From assembly GCF_038396675.1 (NCBI RefSeq), contig NC_088920.1, forward strand, positions 64,474,001 through 64,538,000: a DNA stretch of 64,000 nt. The letters are read 5' to 3'. The notes under the pieces are model-generated. The model saw nothing but the letters and a program-made list of their open reading frames with translations, was not told the DNA's origin and did not search any database. Positions 5,411 through 48,543 of the stretch are shown piece after piece. Made by a program: the position numbers and the translations under genes. This stretch comes from Hydra vulgaris (Eukaryota > Cnidaria > Hydrozoa > Anthoathecata > Hydridae). The stretch's first letter is position 1. Each line of letters begins with the position of its first letter.

Positions 5411-5505
5411 ATATGAGTAGAGAAGATTGAGTATGTGTAAGATACGAGCGTTGAAGGAAAACAATAAATCGTCAAACCCTGACCACGCTATAATATAATC
5501 TTAAT

Positions 5506-6771
5506 ATGGAAAGATCAAAAATCGAATTAGACTTAAATGTCTCCAATAAAAGTTACGCTGAAGCTACAGCAACTAATTCTAACCCAATATTGTCTAATGA
5601 ATTTAGCACATTGAAAAGAACCCTTTTGTGTGAAATAACAGAAAATATAACTGAACCTAATATTTTATTCGCTCTTGAAAACGCCAGTTTAGATCATGAT
5701 CTGGAAGGCCTGAAAATTATTCGTAAAGGGACAATGGTCGAACTCGTCATGAAAACTGACAAGTCGAAATCGTTGATCCTTGAACATGGACTTTTAATTA
5801 ATGGTGTAACCCACTATTTTTCTAACTCTACCCCAACTAGAAACTTATGCAAACGAGTTGCAGTATCGGTAATCGGTCTGCCTCTCGAGAAAAAATATTT
5901 ACCTGTCGGGGTGGCTCTTGAGCAACTCGGATATGGGAAACATATACACACAAGAGCAGTGTATCGCAAAACGCCCAAAAACGGAACATCCTACTATACA
6001 GGAATTCTAGTTGCTATGATGAATCAATTAAATAAACCAATACCAAGATCTTTAAAACTATGCGGGTATAACGTCAGGATAATCTATACCGGACAAAACA
6101 AAGAAGATAACCTAAAACCAAAAGAAAACTTTGTAGATGCGACCGAAGAACCTAGGAAAAAAGTAACGGAAACTAATGAAACAAAAACATCGGAAGAAAT
6201 ACCTGAACCAACAATTAAATTTTCTAAACCACAAGAATCAGAAGTCCCTATGGTGATACGCCAAAACTCTGTCGAAAACCAAATTTTAAACAACGATACA
6301 AATAACTTGAATAAAACAAAAGAAAAGATACCCGAACAAATACCACAGTTACCTGAAACAAATTCTCAAACACAAGAAACTGAAAATCACATGGAAGAAA
6401 GTCTAAGTTTGAACAATAATAATATTGCAAACAAAATCGAACCTCATAACGACAACATCATAAATGAAGTAAACATAGAAGAACTAGAAAAACAAATTGA
6501 ACTTCCCTCAGAATATCTTCGCTTAGATTATACTGGGAGACATGTTTACAACTTAAATTTATTCTACGGTTTTGATAAAACAAAATGCTCGGAAGATGAA
6601 CTATTAATATTTAAGGCATACAAAAAAGCAGAATATGATCAGAGAAAATTCGAAAGAAAAATAAAAAGAAGCAAAGTAAATAATTTAGCCGTCGGACAAC
6701 CAAGGGATTATACTAAAAGGAATACACAAATCCAAAATAATTCTTCATACAATCATGACGACTGGACTTAA
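5506..6771 (+). CDS. Intact ORF1-like RNA-binding protein of a non-LTR retrotransposon
   Basis: 421 codons without interruption, start MERSKIELDLN. Residues about 100-205 have the character of the RRM-like part of LINE ORF1 proteins: CKRVAVSVIGLPLEKKYLPV, then LEQLGYGKHI, then LKLCGYNVRIIYTGQ. After residue 210 comes a long acidic, N/T/E-rich linker, then a charged C-terminus (residues about 325-421) with YLRLDYTGRHVYNLNLFYGF and a basic KKAEYDQRKFERKIKRSK helix-like stretch. The usual CCHC knuckles are absent. It probably coats retroelement RNA. The open frame in otherwise decayed DNA suggests a young insertion. Family assignment rests on general architecture, not on a search. Confidence 0.6.
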   Translation: MERSKIELDLNVSNKSYAEATATNSNPILSNEFSTLKRTLLCEITENITEPNILFALENASLDHDLEGLKIIRKGTMVELVMKTDKSKSLILEHGLLINGVTHYFSNSTPTRNLCKRVAVSVIGLPLEKKYLPVGVALEQLGYGKHIHTRAVYRKTPKNGTSYYTGILVAMMNQLNKPIPRSLKLCGYNVRIIYTGQNKEDNLKPKENFVDATEEPRKKVTETNETKTSEEIPEPTIKFSKPQESEVPMVIRQNSVENQILNNDTNNLNKTKEKIPEQIPQLPETNSQTQETENHMEESLSLNNNNIANKIEPHNDNIINEVNIEELEKQIELPSEYLRLDYTGRHVYNLNLFYGFDKTKCSEDELLIFKAYKKAEYDQRKFERKIKRSKVNNLAVGQPRDYTKRNTQIQNNSSYNHDDWT

Positions 6772-17537: not shown

Positions 17538-20108
17538 TCAGTTCAAGGTCACTTTTCTGGCTTTTTTGGAGGCAAAGTCACTAATGACATCATCAAAATC
17601 AAGTGCGTTGGCCACTTCATGTTCAATTGAAACTACTGCCAGACAAGACAAACGTTCTTGGCCCATAGTTGATCTCAAATAGTTTTTTATGATCTTAAGT
17701 TTACTGAAACTTCTTAAACACGTGGCAACTGTACACACGTGGCAACGGTGAGGAAGATGCGAATAGCAATTGCCGTGTTAGGATAAGCATCAGTGAATGA
17801 GTATTTATGAATTAGCTGCAAAATGTCCATCGGGCTAGATTTTTCAAAGTTTTCCATCATGGCAGCAGCTTGATATTCAAAGCTTGCCATTTCTGACTGG
17901 AAATCTGAAGAATCTAAATCTGCCTTGTAAATTTTAGACAAATTTTTGGCTTTAGTCTTAAGTTCATCCACTGAACTTTTGGGGAGAGAATGTCCACTGA
18001 GGAAGTCAAAATCTGAGGATACTGCAGACATAGCTTCAAACCGCCACTCAATTTGTGTGAGAATGCTGTCAAACACAAGGTTGCACTGGGATCCGAAATT
18101 TGTTTCTGGTGACAAACGGCAAAAGTCATCTTCAGCTTCATAAAGTGCCATCTGCTTCACTTTGCGCTTTCTCTTCATAGGAAAGTCTCCTTCAACTCCA
18201 ATTTGGATAGCTGTTTCTGCAGCAGCTTTGATAATGTTGTCCACCCCAGCATCTCTCAGATTCTGAATGGAAGCCTTCAGTCCTTTCATTTTTTTTGCTG
18301 CAATGTCAATTGAAATGTTTTTAGACTGAAGCAGTTTGTTTTCCCGGTCAATTAAAGAAAGAATTTGACACCAAAAATCCAACAAACACAGAAAACTGAA
18401 ATCAATTTGAATGATGAGCTCTTTTGCACTGCAAACTGAGACAGCATTTGTCTTGGGAGTGTGAATTATGGATTCCAAAACTTGAAGAACTTCTTTTATT
18501 TGTCTGTGTAGTGGGATGATTGCTTCTTTTTTGGCAGACCATCTTGTATCACTATTTCCCTTTAGTGAGATGGTCAATGTTTTCATCAGTTTTTCCCATC
18601 TTAAGGTAGAACTTGAGAAAAAGTTAAAGATGGCTTGAACTTTTCCAAAGAATGTAATCATGAGTGGAGAAACTTCAGCAGCATGGACACCAACAAGGTT
18701 TAAAGTGTGAGCTGCACATGGAACAAATCTTGCAAACTCATTTAGAGAATGGATGTGAGCTCGGACGCCATTATATTTTTCAGACATATTGGCTCCATTG
18801 TCGTAACCTTGGCCCCGACAATCAGAAATGCTCAGGCCATCCTTCTCCAGTTTATCGGTGATTTCAGCTGCAAGGCCCTTTCCAGTTTTTTCGTGAGATT
18901 CAATGAAGTTCACAAAGCTTTCCTCAATTGTACAGGTTTCCTCAGTGATGTGGACATACCTGATTATTTGAGTCATCTGCTCTTTGTGGGAGGCATCTGG
19001 AGTGCAGTCAAACTAAACAGAGTAGTATTTAGCTTCTCTGACATTTGACAAAATTTCATTCCTGACTTTCTGCCCAAGTAATTCAATCAGCTCATTTTGA
19101 ATTCGAGGAGAAAAGTAGGATGTTGTGGTTTTCTTTGCCTTAACGGATGCAACGTGTTCAGCCACTAAAGGATAATAATGGCTTATCAGCTCAATTAAGT
19201 TCAGAAAGATGCCACGTTTTGCTCTCCAATTACTTCTGTTGACCCCGAAGGGCAAGATTGTTCTTGGCACAGAACAAAATTGCATCAACAATCACTTTCA
19301 AGATATCTCTCCACTTTTTCATCTCTCCGTTGATAACTCTCTGCAGATCAAAATCCAAGGTCTTTCCTTCCTTGAGATTTTTTTCCAGATTTTTCCAATC
19401 AGAATAACATCTTTGGTGTTCATTGCTGTTTTCGTGTACTGGAATTCTTGGGTTTAGTTTTTTCCAGTCACAAAATCCTTTTGAAATTTCTGAAAAATTG
19501 TTGGTTTTTGTCGTTGAAAATAGCAGACAGCAAAAACAAAACAAAGAATCTTTTTTGTTGCTGTACAGCAGCCAGTAGCAAACAAATTTTTCACCATTGG
19601 GATGAATTTTTTCATACCATTTTGAGCTGAAGTGTCACATTCTGTTGTCAAAGTCACAAAGTGTGTTTGGGAAAAATTCTCTTCTTTCTTGCTCCGGCCC
19701 ATGCTGAATCAAAAAGCACCTTGTTTTATTTGTCATTTTAGGCCATGTAGCTGGATCACTGTGTTGAAAGTTTTCTCCTGAGGTTGCTGAAATTTCTGAG
19801 ATTTCAGGAGGAAATTCACTGTTGCCCATTCCAAATTCGTCTTGACTTTGGCCAATGAAAATCTCCTTTTCAATTAATTTCAATGGATGATATGAATTTA
19901 AGTCAGTAATTAAAGATGTAGCAGCAACTTCAGCTGTTGAATCATTATCAACCTCATTGCAAATATCCTCTGAAACAATTTGTTTTTCCACAGAAGAGTT
20001 TGTTACCAACCACTTCTTGAATCAATTTCTTAGTTTTGCGTCACTTTCAAGACGGTCTCTTCTTTTCTTCTTAAATTCAGCACCAGATAATTTTTTTGCA
20101 CGATTCAT
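17538..20108 (-). pseudogene. hAT transposase, ZMYM1-like (TTF finger + DUF4371), broken
   Basis: Starts MNRAKKLSGAEFKKKRRDRL at 20,108. In order: acidic N-terminus; TTF/ZMYM-type segment WYEKIHPNGEKF, CFCCLLFST, HQRCYSDW; then NNLALRG; and the DUF4371-like core with FDCTPDASHKEQM, GKGLAAEI, CRGQGYDNGANMSEKYNGV, CAAHTLNLVG, GNSDTRWSAKKEA. The C-terminal dimerisation segment is SFSKLKIIKNYLRSTMGQER. Damage: TGA in place of what was probably CGA near 20,025 and 19,634, frameshifts near 19,240 and 19,208, a TAG near 19,015, and a small duplication near 17,725-17,750. The 420-codon core frame is otherwise intact. Confidence 0.92.
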
Positions 20109-43707: not shown

Positions 43708-43935
43708 TACAAAGTTTGATTAATCTAAAATAAGTAATTTTTATATTATTATTTATTCCTACGACTATCCTGCTTTTATAAAATTAGGTCATCCAATATT
43801 TTCTATTGGAACATGGTTTAGTAAGCACATATAGACACATTTTTGAATACGTGCATCATAACAAATGAATTTTGATTCCGTGGTTTTTATTGGTAATATT
43901 TCTGTACGAGAAATGCGCTAAATCAAGCTTTACTT

Positions 43936-44526
43936 CACGGTGCATAGGAACATACTCTAAGACCTTGCAACAAATCCCCAGAGATTTTATTTTTGATTAT
44001 CATTAGAAAACATTTCCTCATTCAAAAAATGTAAACGACAACTTTTTTTAGTGGGGGCCTGGGGAGAAAACACACATTTTAGGGCAGTGCCCAGGAATTT
44101 TGTCGTTCAAGATAGGTAGCTAATAAGCATGGGGCATACTCAAGTTTTTAGTATGTTGATACTGGTAGCAAATGAGGATGACTTGCAAAAAATTAAGGTA
44201 ATTGAAGCTAAACCAACCCCGCCCCGATCCCTAACTGCCCCCTTCCTAGAACTACGTCTCCTTTAATCGTAAATTTTTTTTTTTGTTCTATCATAAAGGA
44301 GATCAAAATTCATCGACAGATTTCAAATTTCATCAAAAAATCTTTTTTCGTTTAAGATTTATAACAATGCAAAGCCTAAAATTACCCCCTGAAATAACCT
44401 TAAATGGTCTCAACTTTTAAACGAAAAATTTTTTTTTGATGTAACTTGAAATCTGTCGATGAACTTTGATCTAGTTTAATATAAAACAAGCAAAAAGTTG
44501 AAAAGTGTTTTTTGGAACCATACCCT
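43936..44526 (+). repeat. Left ~590-bp terminal inverted repeat
   Basis: Outer end CACGGTGCATAGG; the first seven bases differ from the V(D)J heptamer CACAGTG at one position. Inside are GTGGGGGCCTGGGG, GCATGGGGCATACTCAAG, ACTTGCAAAAAATTAAGG, CCCGCCCCGATCC and ATTCATCGACAGATTTCAAA. The order of the last motifs is shared with the foldback repeats at 21,285 and 50,126. No RSS-like nonamer is evident at 12 or 23 bp. Confidence 0.95.
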
Positions 44527-44711
44527 GGGGAGGGCTATAAGGGGTCGAGAAGGGTTTGCTACAATTATTTATTACAGTAAAAAAAAAACTCTGATTTTTA
44601 TGCTTACATTATGATTGATATTTTACATTTCAAAGTCATACTAAACGTTTGTTCATAGGAGATTTAACACTTTACTTTTTACAACTACATTCCTGCAAAC
44701 AGAAAGCTACT

Positions 44712-47231
44712 TTAAAAGTGCTTGTAGTTGTAAGCAACAACCGCGTTTTTCAGCGCCTCTATATAGTTTGGGCTGTGCTCTCCAACTTTTCTCATTCGCC
44801 AAAACTGATTGAAATCCTGATGAATGGATTCGAGAGCTTGTTCAGTCCAGTAACCTAAGCCTATAGAACAGTAAAAGTGCAAAAGAAATGCAAGTTTATT
44901 TAATAAATATTCGTCGTAAATTATGCAAATTTTACGATTCAACTGTTGAAATAGAGTATTTAATTACTAAGATTATAAATTATTTTTAATCAAATTTAAA
45001 AGTTATTTATCATACCAAAGACTCCACCTTTCATGTTGATAAATTCAATAACATGTTGCTCAATTATGTGTACCTTCAAAGGAATTGTAGCCCTTAGATT
45101 TTTATAGCTCGTAGAGAACTCCTCTAGATCTTTAACATACGTGGAGCTTAATGATTTTCCAAAACAACCATGGACTATTTTTTCAAAATCTCTAAGTACC
45201 TTAATATATTTGGCAGCGGAAACTCCAAGACTAAACTCTTGAAAAAACAGTTCAAAGCTGTCTATGTTTTTAAGCAATTTATGACAAGCATTGCCTTCCA
45301 AACGATGCTGCCCTTGGTAGGACACTCTGCAGATGTTTATTTTAGACAGATATTGATTAACAAACTGTAACCCACACTCCTTGTTTTCAAATAAATTTTT
45401 TTCAATCTCTTTTAAAATTTTGTCTACAACACCTAGCAGTATATGTAGTCCAGGAATATTTACAAGTTCTAGTATTTTTTTGTTTTTGTTGCCTGTTAAT
45501 AAAGGGGAGTTAACAACATTAGTGTAATTTTTAGCTTTTTTTAAATTTGCACCATCAGCCATCCATTGGTCGTACAATGTACACAAAGACTCTAGAGTAT
45601 AATGATCAGCTTTTTGAAAGTCAGGAGATGACGTCATGCAATACGGACAAGGGTGTTTTGATGTTGCAGTTTGTTTTCCAACCATTTGAAGCAAAATCTT
45701 TAGATCTTCAAATACTGTGTAATCTAAGGATGAAATGTTTAGCTTATCCAATATTAACCGCAAGTTATGGTATTTTTCGTTCAATGAAGGCAAAAAGGCC
45801 AATATAATAGTTTTGTGGACGCTTGAATCTTTAAAATCTTTGCACGCATATCCGTCACTCTTGCTCAGTTTCTCTGGAATTTTATTATTTTTTAACTCTG
45901 GTTTTAGGGTTATTGACAGTGTAACTTTTAGGAATCCCTGCCCTCCATCTACACCTAATTTGATATCAACATCATTTGTTTCTTGACTTCTGTGATGAAG
46001 TACCATTGCTACGAGTTCTTCAATGTCATTGCAATACACAATAGGAGTATCTTTTTCTACCAACTATACATTCATAAAAAATCAAAATGAATAATACAAA
46101 TTGCAATCTAGCTATAAAACAATTTTTTTGGAAATAGTTTACTTACCTCTTCGCTTTCTTTTAATTTTAATAGCAATGGGAGTTTATCACAATTGAATAA
46201 ATTTCCAATTATTTCGTTGTTCTCAATCAGTTTAATATTGAAACCGGATTCCACACTTTTTCGTCCTGCCTCACTTCTCAGAAATCGTGCAACTTCAATC
46301 ATGTTGCGATTACTTATAAATCATAATAAAGTTATTAATAAAATTGGCTTTAAACTCATGACAAATTTATTTTTAAAAGTATTTTTAAGCAACAAAAATT
46401 TACCTGGAATGTAGTTTTAATTGAAGTTTGTTCAATTTATCTAAAGAAAAGAAAGGTTTCTTAACCTCAGTCTTTCCGAAAGAGACAGTGAGTTGCTTCG
46501 GACCAAAGGTTTTCAAAACTAAGGTGTTCTCTGAGTCATTTGTGCTGAAATCTTTGATAGAGCTGGACAGAACTTTTCCTTGCGTTGTTGGGGATGTTGA
46601 TTTTACAATGGCAGTCAAATTCTTTTGTCTTTCTAATTTCGTACAGGGATGTGGAATTCCCTGTCCCACTTGGGCATAACAATGTTGACAAACTAGTCTT
46701 TCTGCAGGTTTATTTGAAACATCTTCAGCGCCTTGATAAACGAGCTTTCCCGAAACACAATCAACCATTGGGGCCAATATTTTTTCCATTTTTGATTTGC
46801 GCCCATTTTCACAAATAAAACATTCACATTTTTTCCCTCTAATAACTCTGGTATTCAGGTCTAAATTTTATAGCACTTGTATGACAACTATAATAACTAA
46901 AATAGCGAAACTAAATTTTAAATGAAGTAAATTAAACATCAATATAGTTATAATTACCTTCATAATACGGCCGCATAATGAAGTAAGGATCAGTCCCTGC
47001 AAGCTTTTTTCTACATTTTGAGCAAAGCATGGTAGGAAGGTCAGGATTATCCGCTGAATAATCTTTCCAGAATATAGTTTTGATAAGGTTTGAGTAGTCA
47101 TTTTTCTTTTTATTTAGATTTAAATAAGTTGTTTCAGGGTTATTTATTGGTCTTAAATCCGTGCCTTTCCTGAAGCAGCAAATGCAAAATTTTTTTACAA
47201 AATCACTATGTTCTTTTGCATGTTTAGGCAT
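44712..47231 (-). CDS. RAG1-like DDE transposase, five exons, intact frame (697 aa)
   Basis: Exons 47,231-46,958, 46,860-46,404, 46,312-46,147, 46,063-45,016 and 44,860-44,712, all with GT/AG introns; 2094 nt joined, open throughout. Residues 16-73: C-I-C-C ... C70-x-x-C73 with an LIKTIF segment between, like the RAG1 N-terminal region. C103/C105/C108, then C149-x-x-C152 ... H162-x-C164. The core has D338 (GVDGGQG), D419 (EDLKILL), C438-x-x-C441 (HPCPYC), H631 and H636 (KVHIIEQHVIEF), and E655 (GYWTEQALESIHQ). In RAG1 the second Asp to CxxC distance is 19 and the two His are 5 apart, as here; the final Glu follows the second His by 20, here 19. It probably cleaves and joins its own TIRs in the nucleus. 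Assignment by motif spacing, not by search. Confidence 0.85.
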
Positions 47232-47661
47232 TTTAAATGAATGCTTCAAATAAAAACTTCTGATATGGATTGATAATATTGGCATGATATATCGGTTATA
47301 TCAATCAAATGTCAATATAATGCGTATAAACACATGTCAATATAATGGCTAAAAACATGCTTTCAGTTCGTATATCAACGCGTGCAAAGAGTTATTATGC
47401 AACTGTTAACAATTAGCAACTGCTAACTTTTACTAATTGTTAATAATTAAAGGTTGCTTTGCTTTGTTTTTATTTCAATAAAAATGTAAATAGAAAGTAA
47501 TAAAAATTACTTATCCGTCTGTAAATTTTAATGTTAAACAAAAATTTTTAAAAACTTTAAAAAATAAAATTGATAAATCTATCACAAATATTTCTGAAAA
47601 TTTAAATATGGGGCATGGGCATGATTTTGTGGTGTTCGAGAAAATTCCCCAAATCCCCCCT

Positions 47662-48251
47662 AGGGTATGGTTCCAAAAAACACTTTTCAACTTTTTGCTT
47701 GTTTTATATTAAACTAGATCAAAGTTCATCGACAGATTTCAAGTTACATCAAAAAAAAATTTTTCGTTTAAAAGTTGAGACCATTTAAGGTTATTTCAGG
47801 GGGTAGTTTTAGGCTTTGCATTGTTATAAATCTTAAACGGAAAAAGATTTTTTGATGAAATTTGAAATCTGTCGATGAATTTTGATCTACTTTATGATAG
47901 AACAAAAAAAAAATTTACGATTAAAGGAGACGTAGTTCTAGGAAGGGGGCAGTTAGGGATCGGGGCGGGGTTGGTTTAGCTTCAATTACCTTAATTTTTT
48001 GCAAGTCATCCTCATTTGCTACCAGTATCAACATACTAAAAATTTGAGTATGCCCCATGCTTATTAGCTACCTATCTTGAACGACAAAATTACTGGGCAC
48101 TGCCCTAAAATGTGTGTTTTCTCCCCAGGCCCCCACTAAAAAAAGTTGTCGTTTACATTTTTTGAATGAGGAAATGTTTTCTACTGATAATCAAAAATAA
48201 AATCTCTGGGGATGTGTTGCAAGGTCTTAGAGTATGTTCCTATGCACCGTG
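47662..48251 (-). repeat. Right ~590-bp terminal inverted repeat
   Basis: Complement of 43,936-44,526 with about eight single-base differences and a T11/T10 difference. Between it and the start codon (47,231) lie 430 bp that should contain the promoter of the transposase gene. The repeated TGTCAATATAATG at about 47,310 and 47,334 is the only notable motif there. Confidence 0.95.
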
Positions 48252-48255
48252 ACTT

Positions 48256-48543
48256 TCAACTCATTAACTAACAACTGCAAACAAGATATTTCTGCATTTT
48301 AACTTATTATTTTTCTTAACTCCATTTTTTTTTAGTTTTTGTTTGGATACCCTACAGTGTGATAAATTATTTTATTTTTTTCTAATATCAAGTTTGCTGA
48401 TAGACAGTTAACTTTTCTACATTTTTTTAATTTTGTTTTCTTTTTAATTGAAAATTTTCATGCTTTCCTAGTTTTCTTTTTAATTTAAAATTTTAAGTAA
48501 TCTCATATGTTGTCTGAGATGAGTATCAACTTTCTCGCATTTT
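48256..48543. other. No recognisable gene
   Basis: AT-rich flank of the transposon. Confidence 0.4.

Follow-up and report, generated by a model that had tools for sequence, protein, structure and literature searches.

A complete Chapaev-type transposon with an unbroken transposase gene in Hydra vulgaris, probably a survivor of a single burst

The window analysed here, a stretch of 64,000 nucleotides of Hydra vulgaris DNA (NC_088920.1, positions 64,474,001 to 64,538,000), contains a transposon with both of its ends, a target-site duplication (TSD) and a five-exon gene (Table 1). An earlier reading of the bare sequence, the first-pass annotation, had described ACTT flanks, CACGGTG termini and terminal inverted repeats (TIRs) of roughly 590 bp with about nine differences. 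This description holds to the base: the termini read CACGGTG on the left and CACCGTG on the right, and the two TIRs, each close to 598 bp, align over 599 columns with nine substitutions and one 1-bp gap, column 1 being the adjoining base of the TSD. Each TIR also contains an imperfect palindrome (44276-44496 and 47689-47915) with arms of 85-88 bp that are 82% complementary and a loop of 51 bp, a possible binding or folding element. Elsewhere in the window, long open frames lie at 1189-2481, 5494-6771 and 17714-19012, the first of which looks reverse transcriptase-like by eye.

Table 1. Features of the element, in window coordinates
Feature	Position	Strand	Remarks
Complete Chapaev element, 4,316 bp	43936..48251	gene orientation minus	lies between the two TSD copies
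TSD ACTT, left copy	43932..43935	.	single at empty sites L063 and L064
TSD ACTT, right copy	48252..48255	.	single copy at empty sites
Left TIR, ~598 bp	43936..44533	+	imperfect internal palindrome 44276-44360 / 44412-44496
Right TIR, ~597 bp	47655..48251	-	internal palindrome 47689-47776 / 47828-47915
Exon 1, 274 nt	46958..47231	-	start codon at 47231; first half of N-terminal zinc-finger (Chapa-like) region
Exon 2, 457 nt	46404..46860	-	remaining zinc-finger region, CxC-2-C and C2C...HxC
Exon 3, 166 nt	46147..46312	-	
Exon 4, 1,048 nt	45016..46063	-	most of predicted catalytic core: D338, D419, C438/C441, H506, H631/H636
Exon 5, 149 nt with stop	44712..44860	-	bears predicted catalytic glutamate E659
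Codon of D338, predicted first catalytic aspartate	45947..45949	-	by motif; corresponds to RAG1 D600, outside local alignment
Codon of D419	45704..45706	-	aligned with RAG1 D708
Codon of E659	44829..44831	-	aligned with RAG1 E962

The five exons sum to 2,094 nt of minus-strand coding sequence including the stop (274+457+166+1048+149), which encodes 697 aa, and they are separated by introns of 97, 91, 83 and 155 bp. The stop-free GT/AG chain proposed in the first-pass annotation was confirmed as the one with the longest product among 2,016 GT/AG chains tried, a number limited to hand-set windows around the four introns. Full-length relatives of 729-767 aa, all of them unnamed environmental proteins, can be aligned with the product over its whole length, first cysteines through to final residues, with 25-30% identity, in support of the gene model. 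Additionally, the first splice junction is spanned by the Hydra vulgaris nr protein P0020 and the other three by P0001, also from Hydra vulgaris, the third of these lying in a variable loop. Three uncharacterized Hydra vulgaris genes (LOC124812537, LOC124811278 and LOC124812416) encode the same kind of protein, with 54-60% identity in the shared parts, but represent a different, related family, and compared with the window gene their models are incomplete. At C7:34996585-34997493, a sequence related to the transposase core, with 53% identity, sits in a stop-free open frame of 1,981 residues, possibly a fusion or tandem structure.

The first-pass annotation had proposed two genomic checks, for further copies and for empty sites with a single ACTT, and both gave a positive result in the genome searched (911.5 Mb, 15 contigs). 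For one haplotype of Hydra AEP, passages of a published study give 334 Mb of putatively active transposable elements, 36.6% of the genome (PMC12220107). At least 39 further copies of exon 4 were found at about 98-99% identity by an exon-4 DNA search; copy numbers are lower bounds throughout, as scoring covered 40 candidates in each of two genome searches, out of 615 in one and out of 324 in that for exon 4. Among 27 exon-4 matches with at least 95% amino-acid identity over nearly the whole exon, 14, the window included, are free of stops, and frameshifts may remain in these. For whole-element comparisons, 20 regions were taken by similarity to the window's TIR. L041 and L048, each with one end unaligned, were left out of the 18-copy sets used for TSDs, divergence and coding changes; the same two, and then L069 and L070, were added for the neighbour analysis and its 23-copy alignment.

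Eighteen copies have two ends, namely 16 of the 18 in the main copy set together with L048 and the window, and 13 of these 18 carry a perfect 4-bp TSD, two of them in AT repeats where the duplication is ambiguous. No TSD was seen in the remaining five (L035, L040, L043, L047 and L050). Among the main set's 16 two-ended copies, 15 read CAC and GTG at their two ends, the exception being L037, which begins GAC. Because perfect 4-bp duplications occur in 13 of 18 two-ended copies, a chance origin of the ends and TSD is excluded. When the flanks of the window copy were joined, 12 genomic places matched across the junction with 72-85% identity. Six such empty-site loci were fetched, of which two (L063 and L064) have ACTT once and four have CCTT once; these single tetranucleotides directly indicate that insertion duplicated 4 bp. 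The flanks themselves (43773-43935 and 48256-48465) belong to an older dispersed repeat, found at these 12 places, that hosts the element.

The Chapaev superfamily reportedly goes back to work of Kapitonov and Jurka in 2007. Its hallmarks, as given in passages of one published study, are 5'-CAC/GTG-3' ends, a 3-4-bp TSD and the protein motifs C(2)C, LH and H(4)H, with a TSD of 4 bp in the non-Chapaev3 Chapaev group and of 3 bp (TWA) in Chapaev3 (PMC4079192). An N-terminal complex zinc finger, Chapa, has been described for Chapaev in part of another account, which places it in RAG1 as well (PMC4411706). The window element has the CAC and GTG ends, and its 4-bp TSD recurs in the copies and collapses to one unit at the empty sites. 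The protein carries C(2)C as C438/C441, LH as L505-H506 and H(4)H as H631/H636; D338, D419 and E659, identified by motif and alignment, form a predicted catalytic DDE triad. It also bears a Chapa-type N-terminal finger, for which the statistics of the RAG1 comparison below (HH probability 2.2%, P 0.022) give modest support. The same motifs occur in Chapaev3, which differs in its 3-bp TWA duplication according to those passages; the window has ACTT, which is no TWA, and 4-bp duplications recur among the other copies. By these published hallmarks, as far as the passages set them out, the element is classed from its sequence as a complete Chapaev-type transposon of the CMC/CMCT clade, sharing ends, TSD length, DDE core and Chapa finger with the 4-bp-TSD group; its TIRs of about 598 bp may set it apart from that group.

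Database searches brought up no family name. A Pfam scan of the 697-aa protein found no family above the cut-off, the nearest being zf-AD below it, and among relatives, scanned against Pfam in sets of 26 and of 6, nothing rose above chance except the same sub-threshold zf-AD. The PDB sequence search returned nothing with the protein and one chance match (E 1.3) with profile A3, and none of the relatives from the protein searches (3, 27 and 15 proteins) is named Chapaev, Transib or RAG. Published trees of Chapaev and Transib already include entries from Hydra, as far as the portions used here go, so the element is of an already known kind; the legend of a Chapaev3 tree, for one, names such entries (PMC4079192).

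When a 26-sequence profile (own sequence P0001) was aligned with human RAG1 using hhalign, 275 core columns were matched at 20% identity, and RAG1 residues D708, C727, C730, H795, H937, H942 and E962 fell in register with window residues D419, C438, C441, H506, H631, H636 and E659. RAG1 D600 and window D338 correspond as a motif match only, outside the local alignment. The alignment has a probability of 0.7% and a P of 0.076, and 12 of 300 shuffled RAG1 cores scored as high, none of them aligning over more than 122 columns. The core comparison suggested with the first-pass annotation, run here as a pairwise hhalign, thus puts the residues in register but with low significance. For the N-terminus, a six-sequence alignment (A4) matched the human RAG1 N-terminus over 107 columns with cysteines in register (probability 2.2%, P 0.022), a score reached by 0 of 300 shuffles; with a 150-aa piece, 1 of 300 did so. 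This agrees with the view, in the part of the source used here, that the Chapa finger is also present in RAG1 (PMC4411706).

The register of the catalytic and zinc residues and the RAG1-like N-terminal finger, all of them shared with Transib, ProtoRAG and RAG1, would also suit an element of Transib/ProtoRAG type and so direct kin of RAG1, a placement that is very improbable on the remaining evidence. The protein has no match to PF12940, the Pfam RAG1 family, up to E = 10, and a PF12940 search of the genome found 24 other places, the window element not among them. Transib elements have a TSD of 5 bp, whereas that of the window element is 4 bp. Furthermore, identity to RAG1 is about 20% over the aligned columns, and no RAG2-like second gene was seen in the element. 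Membership in Transib/ProtoRAG is contradicted by these observations. Chapaev itself is described, in the passages used here, as a distant side branch that is only distantly related to Transib and is not the line from which RAG1 arose (PMC4411706). Accordingly, the first-pass assignment to the Chapaev/Transib/RAG1 branch in a cnidarian stands insofar as a Chapaev belongs to that wider assemblage, while the label "RAG1-like" was an overstatement, given the missing Pfam match and, on that partial account, the distance of the branch. Open frames resembling RAG1/Transib that pass the Pfam cut-off do occur in the genome, including one of 736 aa (C7:15156414-15157079) and one of 548 aa (C11:13122940-13123206).

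Over 19 aligned copies, the distance from the majority state ranges from 0.62 to 1.04% (0.70% for the window), with nearly all changes private to single copies, and pairwise distances average 1.61% with a minimum of 1.11%, so that no near-identical copies are found among the 19. The 19 copies form a star, the sign of one past burst. TIR divergence was rejected as a clock: the arms of the 17 copies with both TIRs differ by 1-12 substitutions per copy without tracking age, and the nine differences in the window copy give no insertion date, because TIR arms, unlike those of LTRs, are not reset at insertion. The pooled dN/dS of the 19-copy set is 0.90, close to neutral decay. In the 18 other copies, 16 nonsense changes and 32 frameshifting indels were counted, or about 2.7 disabling lesions per copy, a count that includes neighbouring indels, which may be one event or alignment artefacts; at this rate, about 7% of copies would be intact by chance. 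Coding sequence is intact in 2 of the 19, namely the window copy and L046, in which one TIR is missing, and one donor site is non-GT in 4 of the 18 other copies.

The first-pass annotation had taken the window copy to be recent and possibly still active, and several observations favour a recently inserted, active autonomous element: the intact 697-aa frame, GT/AG splice sites throughout, both TIRs and a perfect TSD are all present, and fewer changes fall in coding (6 of 2,094) than in non-coding positions (24 of 2,222; binomial P 0.002, the best of 19 tests). The copies on C1 share late derived states, indicating that movement or exchange continued past the main burst. In addition, the Hydra AEP study lists, in the passages used here, DNA elements including CMC-Transib among the putatively active (PMC12220107). 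However, the window copy, at 0.70%, is no younger than its siblings, the closest pair still differs by 1.11%, and two intact copies of 19 stand beside the 7% expected by chance. The six coding changes comprise five missense and one silent, as neutrality predicts; one of the missense changes, two residues before the predicted catalytic D419, is common to only 1 of the 18 other copies. A similar coding deficit is seen in L042, L043 and L047, all of which have broken frames. Because of the chance expectation, the neutral pattern of coding changes and the deficit in broken copies, the intact frame is not evidence of an active enzyme, and the claim of recent activity is not upheld; we regard an active, recently inserted copy as unlikely. 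The coding deficit might instead be read as host domestication, with selection at the window locus having kept the gene intact, but the changes are not skewed to silent ones, both TIRs and the TSD are kept and the broken copies show the same deficit, so this reading was rejected and retains next to no credence. The intact gene looks more like that of a lucky survivor, and the window copy has most likely lost its mobility or retains little of it. Taken together, we put the probability that this is an autonomous-type Chapaev transposon from a one-burst family, surviving in the window as a copy with an unbroken gene, at roughly 0.9.

We also examined where the copies lie relative to one another, using a list of 40 placed copies chosen by similarity to the window copy. 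Three of these (L069, L048 and the window) fall within about 113-116 kb on C1 (C1:64406147-64522251), and L047 and L043 lie 338 kb apart on C2, at 47.03 and 47.37 Mb. Under uniform placement, three pairs within 150 kb have a P of 0.0026 and five within 350 kb a P of 0.0005. At least two shared derived states, each present in at most three copies, were found in 6 of 253 pairs in the 23-copy alignment, and four of these six are among the five pairs within 350 kb (Fisher's test, 4.5e-7, for pairs that are not independent); the fifth close pair, L041/L070, has no such shared states. The sister copy L048 (C1:64443643 onward) is 3,889 bp long and has kept its ends, with several hundred bases deleted within one TIR. 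Segmental duplication of the linked neighbours was rejected, as L048 has a TSD of its own (TCTT) and its flank gives only short repeat matches to that of the window, and the flanks of L043 and L047 do not match. The sharing of derived mutations between neighbours suggests local hopping and/or gene conversion, and the latter may contribute at C1, because no single tree gives the mosaic of five, three and two states shared by the pairs of the trio. It is doubtful that the Chapaev family is still mobile in Hydra, moving preferentially over short distances; if it were, it would be a living RAG1 relative with an ancestral N-terminal finger, open to experiment.

Building on the observed ends, TSD, empty sites, copies, intact reading frame and motif register, the working of the element can be proposed as follows. 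The five-exon gene would yield a 697-aa transposase whose Chapa-type zinc-finger region at the N-terminus would probably mediate binding to the long TIRs. Excision would be carried out by an RNase-H-like DDE core made up of D338, D419 and E659, with C438/C441 and H631/H636 predicted to bind zinc, and transposition may pass through a hairpin or other intermediate. Integration of the excised element elsewhere would then involve a stagger of 4 bp. The family spread in one burst, and the window copy is among the survivors whose gene is unbroken.

Chapaev transposases combine a RAG1-type catalytic core with a RAG1-type N-terminal finger, so the window copy, intact and with its ends, TSD and gene model established, offers a useful place to begin testing how enzymes of this kind cut DNA, although it is not the only one. 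Taken by itself, the element does not inform the question of how V(D)J recombination arose, as Chapaev is a distant branch. The family's star-like history and the ties between adjacent copies also make a clean record of a single burst in Hydra.
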